DNA from: Gracilaria domingensis
Lineage: Eukaryota; Rhodophyta; Florideophyceae; Gracilariales; Gracilariaceae
Assembly (NCBI GenBank): GCA_022539475.1
Contig: VCMS01000497.1
Span: 1 to 23,170, forward strand
Direction of reading: 5' to 3'
DNA: 23,170 bases
Below, piece by piece: positions 11,892 through 21,480 of the stretch. Under the pieces are notes generated by a model. That model made no database searches. It saw only the letters and a list, made by a program, of their open reading frames with translations, and was not told the DNA's origin. How positions within the stretch are numbered: position 1 is the stretch's first letter; each line of letters starts with the position of its first letter. The position numbers and the translations under genes were made by a program.

Positions 11892-12134
11892 AGCGGAGTA
11901 TAACGCGATGATATCGATGGCATGGCTCACGATGGTAACGGAAGTTCGGACGTCGGAAGCGCGGCGGCGGCGGCGAAGGGAAGAGATTTATTTTTCTGTG
12001 CGAGATTGGACAAGTGTACAGCGTACAACGTTGGGAAACCACAGGTTTATAACCAGTGGTAGATAATACGAGAAGTACACCCTTGTGTTGAGGTCGACGT
12101 GTACCTACGTTCCTTTTTGAACGAAAGCACGTGA

Positions 12135-12140
12135 TTTAAA
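12135..12140 (+). promoter_or_regulatory. TTTAAA box upstream of transposase
   Basis: TTTAAA lies 27 bases before the ATG at 12167 and 123 before the better ATG at 12263. The same hexamer sits 30 bases ahead of the ATG at 21217 and inside the mirrored leader ahead of 22642. A TATA-like role is inference from this recurrence. Confidence 0.3.
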
Positions 12141-12262
12141 CTCAAAATATATTCTCCGTTCTCAGCATGACGTCGATCTTGACTGTCGCTCGACCTCCTT
12201 CTCCCTTCGGACGCCCTTCCCTTGCAGTCTTTGTCGTCGTTTCTCGTTCAGTTCTTCTTCCC

Positions 12263-15200
12263 ATGGTCTACTACTGTACACATAAGAAGCGTGGGTGCCC
12301 CTTCGTTACTCGCCGAGGAGTCTTATCCCTTCAACAGCATGTCAACCATTGCCCGTTTCGTCTGAAAGCAGCGCTGGAAGACGACAATAGCCGGCTCATT
12401 CGGAGAAGCAAGCGTCTCAAGCTTTCCGCACCCGCGCCCGCATCTTCCGAAACGGTCACTGCCCCTTGTCGCCTTCCCGAGCCTCTAGTGTCCGAGGACA
12501 TCGTCGACCCCACTCCGTGCGCCCCTCCCATTCCGGACACTTCGCATTGTGTTTCTCCTTCCCCGGGTCCCGCGTCATTATAGCGAGAACACGGAAGCAG
12601 TTCCCGCCCAGTGCCTTCTGAGGAGGCCCTCGGTGATTTGCATATGGATTATCTCACGGTTTGTCTGGCTTCAGTAGCTTCCAACCTTGGTCATCGTGAG
12701 GCTGACGAGCTAATTGGGCTACTTCGGGACCCGCGATTCTCGCAAAAGCGATTCAACGAGACCATAACAAGTTCCAAGCGCTGTACAGAACTGAAGAAGG
12801 CCATTTTCGAACGATACGTCTCAAAGGACGGTTTCAATCGCAGAACTGTCTCGCCAGAAGGATGTAAGTTCAGCGCCACCCTCTACACGAGAGACCCCGT
12901 TCAGACACTTGTGAAACAGCTCCAGTTGGCTAACAACGAAAACACATTCTTCCACCCTATACCTCAGACCCACTCCACGAAAATATCTCACCCCATGTCC
13001 GGCTCTCTCGCAAGAGACGCCACCTCAAAACTTAAGGAAATGGTCATGGGCTCTTTGGATAGTAGAATAGTGTGGTACTCCCAAGAAATAAGTTACAGTG
13101 AATCTTTCGTAGGTCTTCTGCAGGTATACACCGATAAGTCTTCAACAACTCTAAAGCAAACATCGGTTACCGCCTATCCTCTTCACCTCATATTTCTCAA
13201 CTTCTCCGACGAGCTTCGCCGTAAGTGTATCCGTGATGACCTCACAGTAGTGGCATACTTCCCTACCACACTGATCGAGGTTTCCGCATCTGAAGCAGAC
13301 GCAATGCCATTCGTTTCTAGCAAGTCTCTACGCGAGTCCAGGATGCAAATCCTTCAAGAATCTCTTCGTCAAGTCCTGGAGCCCATTCTAAATCTCACGC
13401 AGAAAGGTTTTCAGTTCATCGGCGAAGACAAACTAAGTCGAGTGTGCCATCCTCTGCTTGCAAGTTATTGTGCGGACATTCCTGAGGCTAAGGACATTCT
13501 GTCCATTCTTCATGGGACCAAAACGGAAAGCCCGTGTCATAGATGCAAACCCCTCGCTCATCTTTATGCAGTCCTATTCCCACCTCATTCAACGGACGTT
13601 CTCAAAAGCACACGAAAAGCATCCGAAAGACATACACAGCTATCTTGCAACATGCACAAAAAGACGAGGCGGAAAGACGTCCACGTCGTGCGAGGGAGAG
13701 GAGATCTCAAGCGGATACTCTGATGCGTTCAAATTCCATATCTCTCATTCCTTCGTTCCTCGAAACTTCCGTAAGCCTTGGAATGATCCCGGGATTGTCT
13801 CCATACAGTCTGTTCTCATTCGAACCATTACACAACTTGCATCTCGGCATCTCAAAGTTGATAAAAACGGCCACAATCGAGAGACTGCAGTCAGACACCC
13901 TGTGCACCACATTAGGAACATCTGCATCGCGTTCATTTCGAACGATATGCACCCAACTCCTCAACCATGCAAACGCAATTCTAGCTGCCATAGAACGCGA
14001 TTCTCCTGCCAAAGGTTTACATATCGATTTCTCCACGCAGGAGAAAGGCAAATCTTTGAATGGTATCTTCACGAAAGACGGTCTCCGTGGAATGCTGGAG
14101 GCCAAAAACTACAAAGCACTTGACATGGTCTTTCCCTTCATAGGAGCATTCTTTGACATATGCTGTGGAGAACAGGACGTTGCCCCAATCACAGGCGTTT
14201 TCTCTCAGTACTCGGACTTGCTCTCGACCTTATTCAGATACAATCGTGACCCGTATTGGACTGAAAGCTCTCTCCTGTGTCTTAGTTCGGAGATTGAAGC
14301 CTTCAAGCGTTCCGCAACAAAGACTCTGGCGGATTTTCATCCCTCCAGACTGGGAACTCTGAAGTTTCATCTTCTCGATCATCTCGTGGACGATATTCGC
14401 CGTCTGGGAAGTATCCAGTACTACGACGCAGGCATATACGAACATGCACACCTGCTATTTAAAAGACACTACAAAAAGACGTCCAGAAGAACAGCAACGG
14501 CTGTGGAGGAGACTATTCGCTCCATTGAGCACGGACATGTTAGAAAGCAATGGAATGGCAATACTCCTTACCAGCGTAATTTAGGTTTACCAGGAACTTC
14601 CACACAGCTTCCTCGATTTGCAATGAGAGGGCGTTCTTTCACTTCACGAGCTCTTCAAAATTGTGTTTCAAGTATGTCCAGTTCAAAAACATGGACTGCT
14701 GTTAGAGAAATGTTCTCAAGTACGGACACAAGGTCGATTCTTGATCAAATTGGTGAACAGGCCCTTCCTCCTTTCCTCAGTCTCGTGAAAGAAACACTGG
14801 ATGAGCACTCTATTACATACTTCCCAGAAAAGACAAGGATAACTCTGGTGAATTCGGCCCTCGTGAAAGGCGGTTTCGTTCCGACTCTTGAACACTTCGA
14901 TTCGTCTTCTAAGGCACTTAAGCTGGGACGACGCAAATACCCCATCATCCAACGTGTCTTCGCTTCTCCAGCATTTGGTCCCAGTAGAAAGCCAAAGTTT
15001 TCCACTGTATTGGTAAGCGGAGAAGATTCAGAGACTTGGGTTGCCCAGGTAGTCGCTCTGATTCGAATATCTCTCCTTGATTCTGCACTTACCGCACCAG
15101 AGGTGGCATTCGTCCGGTATTTCGAGGTTTTACCCCCCGCAACAAACATCGACCACATATTGAAATGCATATCTTTACGGTGGGCTACAAACGATGAAAA

Positions 15201-15439
15201 GAACCACATCTTCCGTCCCTCGTCATTCCAAAGCGGAGACTATCGTAGAGTTAACTCCTTGGTACGGGATGGTTCCGGCTTCTGCACTACAGGGAACTGT
15301 CCATGTTGTTCGATCAAACTACCCTGCTCCACCTTTTTGTCCTCCACTTCAATGGTTTCAACACCGATTCTACATCAATCGATTCTATCATGATTCAGAT
15401 GAAGGACCAACTGAGCACGTTGATCTTGTACAGCCTTAA
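12263..15439 (+). pseudogene. KDZ/Plavaka-like transposase (DDE type) with N-terminal zinc finger, frame-broken
   Basis: It would cut and move the element. Start chosen at 12263 because it lies in ccatgg and directly precedes the zinc finger (C5, C12, H26, C30); an upstream ATG at 12167 is in frame. Motifs in order: QVYTDKSSTT with a candidate catalytic Asp at 13133-13135, then AYPLHLIFLNFSDELRRK and VVAYFPTT, then CHRC near 13537, then FEPLHNLHLG near 13820, then KFHLLDHLVDDIRRLGS, then YEHAHLLFKRHYKKTSRR with a candidate catalytic Glu. These follow the Plavaka pattern known from fungi. The frame is interrupted by TAG at 12581. It then moves back one base between 13543 and 13720, and forward one near 15200-15240, where WYGMVPASALQGTVHVV and FYINRFY resume. 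Decay is the simplest reading; readthrough, frameshifting or introns are alternatives. Confidence 0.82.
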
Positions 15440-21217: not shown

Positions 21218-21229
21218 CGCTTCAGCGCA

Positions 21230-21322
21230 AACAACGGAGGCGAGCCTTTAAATGGCGACTTACGCTGGGCACCCCCGCTTTCGGCAGCTCCTCCCAGCGC
21301 ACTGCCAGTCTCGTCCGTGTCC
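21230..21322 (-). promoter_or_regulatory. Mirrored 93-bp leader, left copy
   Basis: On the minus strand this reads from ggacacggacgagactggca to ggctcgcctccgttgtt and contains TTTAAA at 21247-21252. It matches 22491-22583 on the plus strand over all 93 bases with one mismatch next to TTTAAA and no gaps. It ends 13 bases before the ATG at 21217. Sequence beyond the block diverges quickly on the gene side, so it is probably a shared promoter/5' leader. Confidence 0.75.
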
Positions 21323-21331
21323 GTGTCCGCT

Positions 21332-21373
21332 CGGAGCGATAGCGTCGCGTGTCGGAGCGATAGCGTCGCGTGT
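21332..21373. repeat. 21-bp tandem repeat, two copies
   Basis: cggagcgatagcgtcgcgtgt is repeated exactly at 21332-21352 and 21353-21373, just upstream (gene sense) of the left mirrored leader. The right-hand side lacks this doubling. Confidence 0.85.
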
Positions 21374-21480
21374 CGGCCACGTCGCGATTCGGAGCTATTG
21401 CAACGGTCCCGTATTGTGCTAAAAGTCGCGGATCAAGTGGGTGTGAAGCGCTAGTTTTCTCTAGTTTGATATATGTGTAC

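Follow-up and report, generated by a model that had tools for sequence, protein, structure and literature searches.

Several DNA transposons with one epigenetic enzyme as cargo have already been described. The TET-positive PlavakaB elements of fungi combine a Plavaka transposase with a DNA-base-modifying enzyme as cargo and have short target-site duplications (Kojima 2025, PMC12730594). In the available text of that work, Plavaka transposases are described as having DDE catalytic residues together with C(2)C and H(3–4)H motifs; PlavakaA elements have TGT..ACA termini and 2-bp target duplications, and PlavakaB elements have CATCA..TGATG termini and 2–3-bp target duplications. The same paper cites HarbingerS and MuDR elements of Phytophthora, DNA transposons that carry a SET histone-methyltransferase gene as cargo; however, these belong to other transposase superfamilies, and a fused DNA methylase is not mentioned in the portion of the paper that is available. 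For the Plavaka giant repeats of Amoebidium, matches to red algal database entries have been noted; the accessible sections of the report name tyrosine recombinases and do not mention a methylase-SET gene (PMC11244446). In bdelloid rotifers, the captured bacterial-type amino-methylase N4CMT is functionally linked to the SET enzyme SETDB1, in a system of separate host genes that includes a chromodomain and the SPPY motif (4mC) (PMC8885841).

The 78-Mb genome of the red alga Gracilaria domingensis contains a Plavaka-type DNA transposon with a length of approximately 22.5 kb, in which one transposon protein unites a predicted DNA-base methylase with a SET domain. In comparison with the fungal PlavakaB elements described in the available text of PMC12730594, its cargo is a fusion of a predicted adenine-type methylase with a SET domain, accompanied by a ParB-dioxygenase-like protein without a Pfam match, its termini are CGTCTGT..ACAGACG, its host is a red alga, and its size is about 22 kb. 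In contrast to the separate bdelloid genes, the methylase and SET domains form one transposon polypeptide with a DPPF/Y motif. No description of this methylase-SET Plavaka element has been found in the open literature searched.

Extent and termini of the element

The window, which is the whole analysed stretch of 23,170 nucleotides, contains the left 13.1 kb of the element. The element starts at position 10068 and its remainder lies past the window end; the copy C359 measures 22,471 bp from end to end. The limits of 12100–21480 proposed in an earlier note on this DNA have been rejected on the basis of the mapped left and right termini. The features of the window are:

10068..10090, + strand, left terminus CGTCTGTCTCTTGCAGATGCTAG, the common start among copies
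10094..10203, + strand, left subterminal repeats, three TTGGCGAGGGTCGTCCAG-like copies (repeat family D7)
12140..15440, + strand, Plavaka-type transposase gene (PF18759), here disrupted by an in-frame stop and frameshifts
15436..18040, − strand, gene of an NLS-rich protein labelled coiled-coil in the earlier note, 868 aa when unbroken, here with several frameshifts
18080..21217, − strand, methylase-SET fusion gene, encoding where intact a protein of about 1,045 aa with an N-terminal domain containing PKKKRKV, a DNA methylase and a SET domain; start codon checked
18122..18601, − strand, SET domain (PF00856, Pfam match)
18988..19701, − strand, N6_N4_Mtase domain (PF01555), beta class, with a DPPF catalytic motif
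21230..21329, − strand, 100-bp block directly upstream of the methylase-SET start codon, common to the divergent gene
21483..22290, no strand, GC-rich foldback of 808 nt between the divergent genes, formed by inverted repeats
22485..22583, + strand, second 100-bp block, an inverted copy with 98% identity, upstream of the ParB-dioxygenase-like gene
22642..23170, + strand, first part of the ParB-like/2OG-dioxygenase-like gene, which is truncated at the window end

The same left start is found in seven of the eight copies in which the left side was read, and the flanks differ between copies. The left terminus has one mismatch in C238 and two in C61, and C171 is without it. Its 23-mer has 572 genome-wide matches with up to three mismatches, compared with 0 for the reversed control. 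The right terminus, ACAGACG, has been read in C359, C385, and C238, and a search for the window copy's own right junction gave 0 matches. The two ends are terminal inverted repeats in which 12 of the 15 outermost bases agree. Because the outermost bases are CGTC and GACG, with TGT..ACA located 4 bp further in, the element fits neither PlavakaA nor PlavakaB as defined. The left subterminal repeats may constitute a transposase-binding array; in C359, the left end is the only part of the element with the GGGTCGTCCAG motif (at most one mismatch).

Target duplications of 2 bp, TG and AT, are present at two nested insertions that were judged against empty sites. The TG duplication belongs to family 2, with the left junction in C61 and C171 and the right junction in C12, C233, and C299, and the AT duplication is from C32, where both junctions were read. 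A clean target duplication is absent from both copies with two ends read (GG/TG in C359 and CA/AA in C238).

The methylase-SET fusion and neighbouring genes

The transposase, methylase, SET, nuclear-signal, and coiled-coil-labelled components listed in the earlier note are all present in the sequence. The Plavaka transposase model PF18759 matches the window piece with an E-value of 7.9e-17 and the unbroken 1100-aa frame of C600 with 67.4 bits against a cut-off of 26.3; the same unbroken frame is present in C192 and C359. The methylase, SET domain, and nuclear signal had been taken for three proteins; however, they are encoded by one intronless gene that forms a single frame in other copies, and three separate genes have been rejected for this reason. 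In the window copy, two frameshifts interrupt this gene, and an unbroken 1055-aa stop-to-stop frame is present in 9 of the 44 scored genomic places. Since the intact copies are intronless, the changes of frame are not spliced exons, and this reading has been rejected as well. The linkage of the methylase to the SET domain is therefore tighter than previously supposed.

The methylase domain matches PF01555 with an E-value of 1.1e-15 on the window piece. Motif IV (DPPF) precedes motif I (FAGTFST), which is the order characteristic of beta-class amino-methyltransferases. The domain is thus predicted from its sequence to be a beta-class N6/N4 amino DNA methyltransferase of the adenine type. The residues DPP, R-EQK, YG, ND, and EL are invariant in the fusion alignment. 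The methylase part of model P0001 has fold matches to M1.HpyAVI, CcrM, M.BceJIV, and bdelloid N4CMT. The parallel to bdelloid 4mC that had been drawn for this locus holds for the methylase fold and the link to SET; however, it is weaker than thought, because DPP[FY] is present in all 11 aligned sequences and SPPY in none. No chromodomain is among the Pfam matches of the scanned proteins.

The SET domain matches PF00856 with an E-value of 1.5e-8 on the window piece and 32.3 bits against a cut-off of 22.4, and the SET part of model P0001 has a fold match to SET7/9. The canonical SET motif is NHS. The fusion has an invariant ND at this place, and it is therefore possible that the domain has another substrate or chemistry; GEEL..DYG is found in most, not all, aligned sequences. 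As its nuclear signal, the fusion carries the string PKKKRKV in the N-terminal part.

The fusion gene and its divergent partner share the 100-bp upstream block, whose only two copies in the C359 element are those listed above (E 1e-3). The foldback between the genes forms one long hairpin (z −61.6 versus 20 shuffles). The partner gene has a 1308-aa stop-to-stop frame in C296. Its product is predicted to join a ParB-like fold to a 2OG-dioxygenase-like domain, the latter assigned from a motif. In the AlphaFold model of this protein (mean pLDDT 44), only about the first 370 residues can be used. In a Foldseek search with model P0014, ranks 1–14 are all ParB or Noc, with a best E-value of 5e-3 and none at 0.001; the PHROG ParB matches of the protein are weak (E 0.0085 and 0.018), and Pfam gives no match on the ParB-like part. 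An HxD..H..R motif is conserved in three sequences of the dioxygenase-like part, for which Pfam gave no match and the PDB profiles gave only chance-level ones, the best of these (E 0.062) being to an unrelated protein. The coiled-coil-labelled protein forms one 868-aa frame in C600, and a Pfam scan of it gave no match.

Genomic copies and selection on the cargo

The element is present in dozens of copies in the genome. The interval given in the earlier note matches 21 genomic places, and 11 of these matches are nearly full-length with 97–100% identity. The scored places, out of all first-look candidates, number 44 of 1091 for the methylase-SET gene, 52 of 1008 for the coiled-coil-labelled gene, 68 of 924 for the ParB-dioxygenase-like partner, and 123 of 672 for the transposase. 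An unbroken 1100-aa transposase is found at at least 21 of the 123 scored places. The intact-transposase copies C359 and C49 are also among the listed methylase-SET places. In nine further such copies that were read at the expected position of the gene, the methylase-SET gene is present in six; in the others, it is shifted by a deletion (C186), unrelated DNA occupies its position (C325), or the sequence consists only of N (C143). At two further places, the expected position lies outside the contig. Transposase copies without the methylase at its expected position, which the earlier note had regarded as evidence against its proposal, therefore exist as a minority: the gene is missing from its place in two of the eight informative copies, and most (six of eight) keep it. 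A listed coiled-coil or partner neighbour is found at at least 17 of the 44 methylase-SET places. This count is limited by the lists, because opening three coiled-coil places without a listed methylase revealed broken methylase-SET genes in C139 and C17, and C246 stops within the SET end.

On C12, a single copy from a second Plavaka family has pieces of the transposase, SET, methylase, and ParB that follow the same order on the same strands; its cargo is 35–47% identical. The cargo therefore looks like a conserved module, and chance proximity or hitch-hiking of host genes has been rejected. The fusion is accompanied by the ParB-dioxygenase-like protein in one family and by its ParB part in the second, diverged family. 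The proposal that the methylase and SET genes are transposon-borne is strongly supported by this copy, by the common termini, by the 2-bp target duplications at the two nested insertions, and by the many copies.

The transposase and the fusion are under purifying selection. Variants common to at least two of 11 copies were considered shared, and the others private. In the fusion, the shared variants comprise 17 synonymous and 12 nonsynonymous changes (ratio 0.20; p 2e-5 relative to the numbers of sites); in the transposase, they comprise 21 and 19 (ratio 0.29; p 1e-4). Constraint is weaker among private variants, with ratios of 0.56 for the fusion and 0.80 for the transposase, and stops occur only among them. 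Among the compared copies, a purifying signal is absent from the shared variants of the coiled-coil-labelled gene (8 synonymous and 22 nonsynonymous) and of the dioxygenase part (2 and 9).

Possible roles of the cargo

The reading to which we incline is that the element likely uses the fusion to mark its own DNA and chromatin, and thereby stays expressed and escapes host silencing. The DPPF/Y beta-class domain is predicted to make 6mA and the SET domain to methylate a histone lysine, and the partner protein would bind DNA through its ParB-like domain and oxidise bases through its 2OG-dioxygenase-like domain. The writer and the partner may be co-expressed from the paired upstream blocks, and both would act on element DNA and keep its chromatin permissive. 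Anti-silencing has been proposed for fungal Plavaka elements with TET/JBP dioxygenases (PMC12730594). In several eukaryotes, 6mA accompanies H3K4me3 in permissive chromatin; the link, as given in the available part of that source, concerns AMT1 (MT-A70) enzymes, not those of the beta class (PMC12695648). An exon-by-exon search of the genome for a C5-cytosine methylase (PF00145) found none, with a control positive in 10 of 14 genomes; therefore, any host silencing that the element evades could act by means other than DNA methylation. More tentatively, each copy could write and rewrite its own chromatin independently of the host, using a fused DNA-adenine/histone writer together with a base oxidiser that is co-regulated with it and guided by ParB.

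The nearest fold matches, which are to bacterial adenine methylases including CcrM, together with the purifying selection on both transposase and fusion, would also suit a methylase that marks element ends or hemimethylated daughters and so limits the transposase to the post-replication period or to its own DNA, with SET and ParB aiding assembly. Dam acts in this way for IS10, and CcrM has a cell-cycle role. However, the SET domain is left without a clear role, and we consider this explanation improbable. It is somewhat less improbable, but still unlikely, that the fusion puts repressive DNA and histone marks on the element's own copies, reducing damage to the host and prolonging the life of the family. 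In bdelloids, SETDB1 and transposon silencing are connected with an amino-methylase that makes 4mC (PMC8885841), and many degraded copies exist beside few open-frame ones, as expected of a restrained family. By contrast, the cargo of the Plavaka elements that come closest as precedents consists of dioxygenases with a presumed role in stripping silencing marks (PMC12730594), DPPF/Y predicts 6mA, which in surveyed eukaryotes marks permissive chromatin (PMC12695648), and we expect transposons to gain anti-silencers more readily than repressors.

Least probable, and in our view very unlikely, is a phage-style hypermodification of element DNA by the methylase, ParB-like, and dioxygenase-like parts that shields an extrachromosomal or integrated form from nucleases. 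Phages often pair a methyltransferase with TET/JBP enzymes (PMC12730594), and the gene combining the ParB-like fold with the HxD...H...R motif has its duplicated upstream block in common with the methylase gene. However, no glycosyltransferase or kinase is among the Pfam matches of the element proteins scanned, and the SET domain would be unexplained. If the element does mark itself to escape silencing, its fusion would show that selfish DNA can turn the joint marking of DNA and chromatin into a weapon. The locus bears on the role of adenine or amino-methylation in eukaryotes outside MT-A70 systems and on whether transposons can shape chromatin states themselves instead of only being subject to them; both questions are approachable with existing long-read methods. 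As a naturally fused enzyme, the protein might also be of use in epigenome work.

All nine relatives found in the first protein search, one of them named Chondrus crispus, carry both methylase and SET. The Chondrus crispus protein P0004 is a full-length relative with methylase and SET in 1000 aa and is named only 'adenine specific DNA methyltransferase'. The analysis corrects red algal gene names in databases, for example 'cell-wall-anchored protein SasA'. In viral contigs, at least 54 loci match the methylase part of the query only, within residues 469–799.

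Gene content and limits of the element

All five components named in the earlier note were found in the window: Plavaka (PF18759), DNA methylase (PF01555), SET (PF00856), a frame rich in nuclear localization signals (termed coiled-coil in that note and below), and an N-terminal frame with PKKKRKV. The nuclear-signal, methylase, and SET parts had been described as separate proteins; they form one protein, since in other copies a single intronless frame of 1055 amino acids from stop to stop encodes them (contigs C597 and C171). The window copy is broken, and its gene limits were therefore misread. 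The transposase frame is also single and intronless (1100 amino acids in C192, C359, and C600), as is the coiled-coil frame (868 amino acids in C600). A protein search of the genome of 77,892,253 bases located the methylase-SET gene at no fewer than 44 places, a lower bound because 44 of 1091 candidates were scored; the whole frame 1-1055 is open without a stop at nine of the 44.

The interval 12100..21480, previously taken as the element, matched at 21 places, 11 of them near full length. The ten near-full-length copies outside the window were compared together with their flanks, and the limits of this family 1 element lie farther out: homology extends beyond both sides where contigs allow. 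The left terminus CGTCTGTCTCTTGCAG is common to seven of the eight copies with the left side read, including the window, whereas their flanks differ. It has one mismatch in C238 and two in C61, and C171 lacks it. The right terminus ACAGACG is present in C359, C385, and C238; the right side stops earlier in C192, is broken by nested insertions in C32, C61, and C171, and runs to contig ends in the window, C597, C600, and C239. The element in C359, with both ends read through, is 22,471 bp long (contig positions 30920-53390). The termini in C238 are 22,678 bp apart, a distance that includes 5.9 kb of unread sequence. The terminal 23-mer occurs 572 times in the genome at up to three mismatches, versus 0 for the reversed control, and thus many shorter derivatives are likely.

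Features of family 1 and its flank
Window 10068: left terminus of the window copy, CGTCTGTCTCTTGCAG, shared by seven of eight copies
Window 4192-6396, minus strand: frame of an ECM29-like HEAT protein beside the element, probably a host gene
C359 right third, and C385 9265-12009, element orientation: HAD-like frames and a frame without a Pfam match

The right part of the element, beyond the partner gene that diverges from the methylase-SET gene, contains a HAD-type hydrolase frame (PF08282, E 4e-13), a second frame judged similar to it on visual inspection and by a matching stretch of 108 bp, and the frame without a Pfam match, which we take to resemble a ketopantoate reductase. In the flank of the window copy, a broken frame at 8005-8904, with no Pfam match on 8005-8472, presumably resembles a PLP-dependent acyltransferase of the serine palmitoyltransferase type.

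Insertion sites and a second Plavaka family

The proposal that the methylase and SET genes are transposon-borne is strongly supported by the common termini and by target duplications, TG and AT, at two nested insertions. The insertion in the partner gene has the left junction CTCAGGTG joined to CGTCTG (C61 and C171), the right junction ACAGACG joined to TGGGTTG (C12, C233, and C299), and the empty site CTCAGGTGGGTTG (C600); its duplication is TG if the junctions in different contigs are copies of one event. In C32, the junctions AAATATAT joined to CGTCTG and ACAGACG joined to ATCCCC lie 10.1 kb apart on the same contig, and with the empty site AAATATATCCCC in C359 they give the duplication AT. 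A clean target duplication was not seen at C359 (GG/TG) or C238 (CA/AA). Nested insertions also precede the main element of the window: positions 9408-10067 contain the right end of another element, up to 9717, and immediately after it a right-hand piece of one more copy (9718-10067), into which the main element is inserted. The uninterrupted site, GGATAT directly followed by AGCCCG, is present in C359 and C385.

The insertion in the partner gene in C61 and C171 is a family 2 Plavaka element with a terminal heptamer identical to that of family 1; its length is about 20 kb by estimate (C12, approximately 65-85 kb). Scoring of 123 among 672 candidates in the genome divided the Plavaka domains into at least two groups, whose unbroken frames have 1100 and 1110 amino acids; the transposase pieces compared between the two families share 42-57% identity.

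Family 2 element in C12, compared with family 1
68.4 kb: transposase
85,355: right terminus
Minus strand: basic frame where family 1 has the coiled-coil gene, no detectable similarity to it
Minus strand: SET piece, 46.7%
Minus strand: methylase piece, 35.5%
Plus strand: ParB piece, 37.5%

The pieces, read as slices of one copy with the dioxygenase part outside the slices, are arranged as in family 1, in both order and strand. Their positions suggest that the transposase, SET, methylase, and ParB pieces belong to one element and, from this one family 2 copy, that the cargo is a conserved module. The unbroken 1100-residue transposase occurs at 21 or more places among those listed, of which C359, C49, and nine others were checked; in two more the expected site lies beyond the contig end, and the other eight are mostly close to contig ends. 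C359 and C49 are also among the methylase-SET places. At the expected site, six of the nine carry the methylase-SET gene, one is shifted by a deletion, one has unrelated DNA, and one has only N. Copies with the transposase that lack the gene at its place, which the earlier note had named as contrary evidence, thus exist as a minority.

The methylase-SET protein and its divergent partner

One search of 5.8 billion proteins found nine relatives of the fusion, 27-42% identical over the aligned parts, including a Chondrus crispus 'adenine specific DNA methyltransferase'. Precomputed domains assign methylase and SET to eight of them, and our scan detected SET in the ninth, P0007. A second, alignment-based search added eight proteins; none of the five scanned had SET at E 0.01. 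Motif IV, which comes before motif I, reads DPP[FY] in each of the 11 aligned sequences, and the methylase is predicted to be of the N6-adenine type by a rule stated in PMC8885841. Profile matches in the PDB include adenine methylases for the methylase (entries named DpnA, CcrM, MboIIA, and RsrI) and include EZH2 and SETD8 for SET. In the AlphaFold model of P0001 (mean pLDDT 68), the methylase matches M.BceJIV, CcrM, and M1.HpyAVI, as well as the bdelloid and PvuII N4-cytosine enzymes, and the SET part matches SET7/9. The SET domain retains the GxG, YG, and EL features, with ND at the place of the NHS motif of canonical SET enzymes.

The partner gene continues past the window end; its frame has 1308 amino acids in C296, and 68 places were scored in the genome. 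The N-terminal part of the encoded protein resembles ParB in fold: on the P0014 model, ParB or Noc structures take every one of Foldseek ranks 1-14, the best E being only 5e-3, and PHROGs matches are weak. The C-terminal motif RQxLHxDF...GRGDxxHAGA...RYH is unchanged among three sequences that are about 36% identical. HxD...H...R is the pattern of 2OG dioxygenases; Pfam gave no match for this part and the PDB profiles none that is credible, so the dioxygenase is a motif-based prediction. An element protein has two database matches named as Gracilaria domingensis, with 89% and 92% identity across 79% and 77% of its length. In public data, the partner-gene proteins P0010 and P0011 of this species carry the names 'cell-wall-anchored protein SasA' and 'mediator subunit 15-like'.

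Each of the two start codons is preceded by a copy of a 100-bp block. The two copies in the window are in inverted orientation and 98% identical; in the C359 element the block occurs only upstream of the two divergent genes. Between the blocks lies a near-perfect GC-rich foldback of 808 nt (21483-22290, z -61.6), which might form a cruciform or give rise to double-stranded RNA. From the inverted blocks and the foldback, we infer co-expression of fusion and partner. The opposite end of the window (1211-1689) also contains inverted repeats related to the foldback.

Selection and possible function

Variants among 11 copies were split into those shared by at least two copies and private ones. Shared variants number 17 synonymous to 12 nonsynonymous in the fusion (p 2e-5 against site numbers) and 21 to 19 in the transposase (p 1e-4). 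Private variants show weaker constraint (63 to 125 and 66 to 167; Fisher p for shared versus private 0.013 and 0.003), and stops occur among them only. From the synonymous excess in shared variants, we infer that selection preserved the function of both genes during the spread of the family. No purifying signal was seen in shared variants of the coiled-coil gene (8 to 22) or, over five copies, of the dioxygenase part (2 to 9).

The element likely marks itself against silencing. The fusion would write two predicted marks, one on DNA adenine and one on protein lysine, and the partner, probably co-expressed, would be a DNA-binding protein that oxidises a base or some other substrate; placed on the DNA and chromatin of the element, the marks would let it escape silencing. 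Two published accounts describe related cases: AMT1-dependent 6mA accompanies H3K4me3 and permissive chromatin in other eukaryotes (PMC12695648), and Plavaka relatives in fungi encode dioxygenases with a proposed role in lifting silencing (PMC12730594). The cytosine-5 DNA methylase PF00145 had no match in the whole genome, the control being positive in 10 of 14 genomes; the silencing escaped may therefore be histone-based. The same predicted marks could instead silence the element itself, which we consider unlikely. A role in replication-coupled control of transposition is somewhat less probable still, and phage-like protective hypermodification of the element DNA is the most doubtful of these readings.

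Searches of 5.39 million open-access papers brought up no description of a transposon that carries a methylase-SET fusion; the subscription literature, mostly outside the scope of the search, may contain an earlier mention of the Chondrus crispus protein. Fungal TET/JBP transposons were reportedly described in a 2014 paper. Plavaka elements have been reported in a green alga (PMC12636532) and in Amoebidium (PMC11244446).
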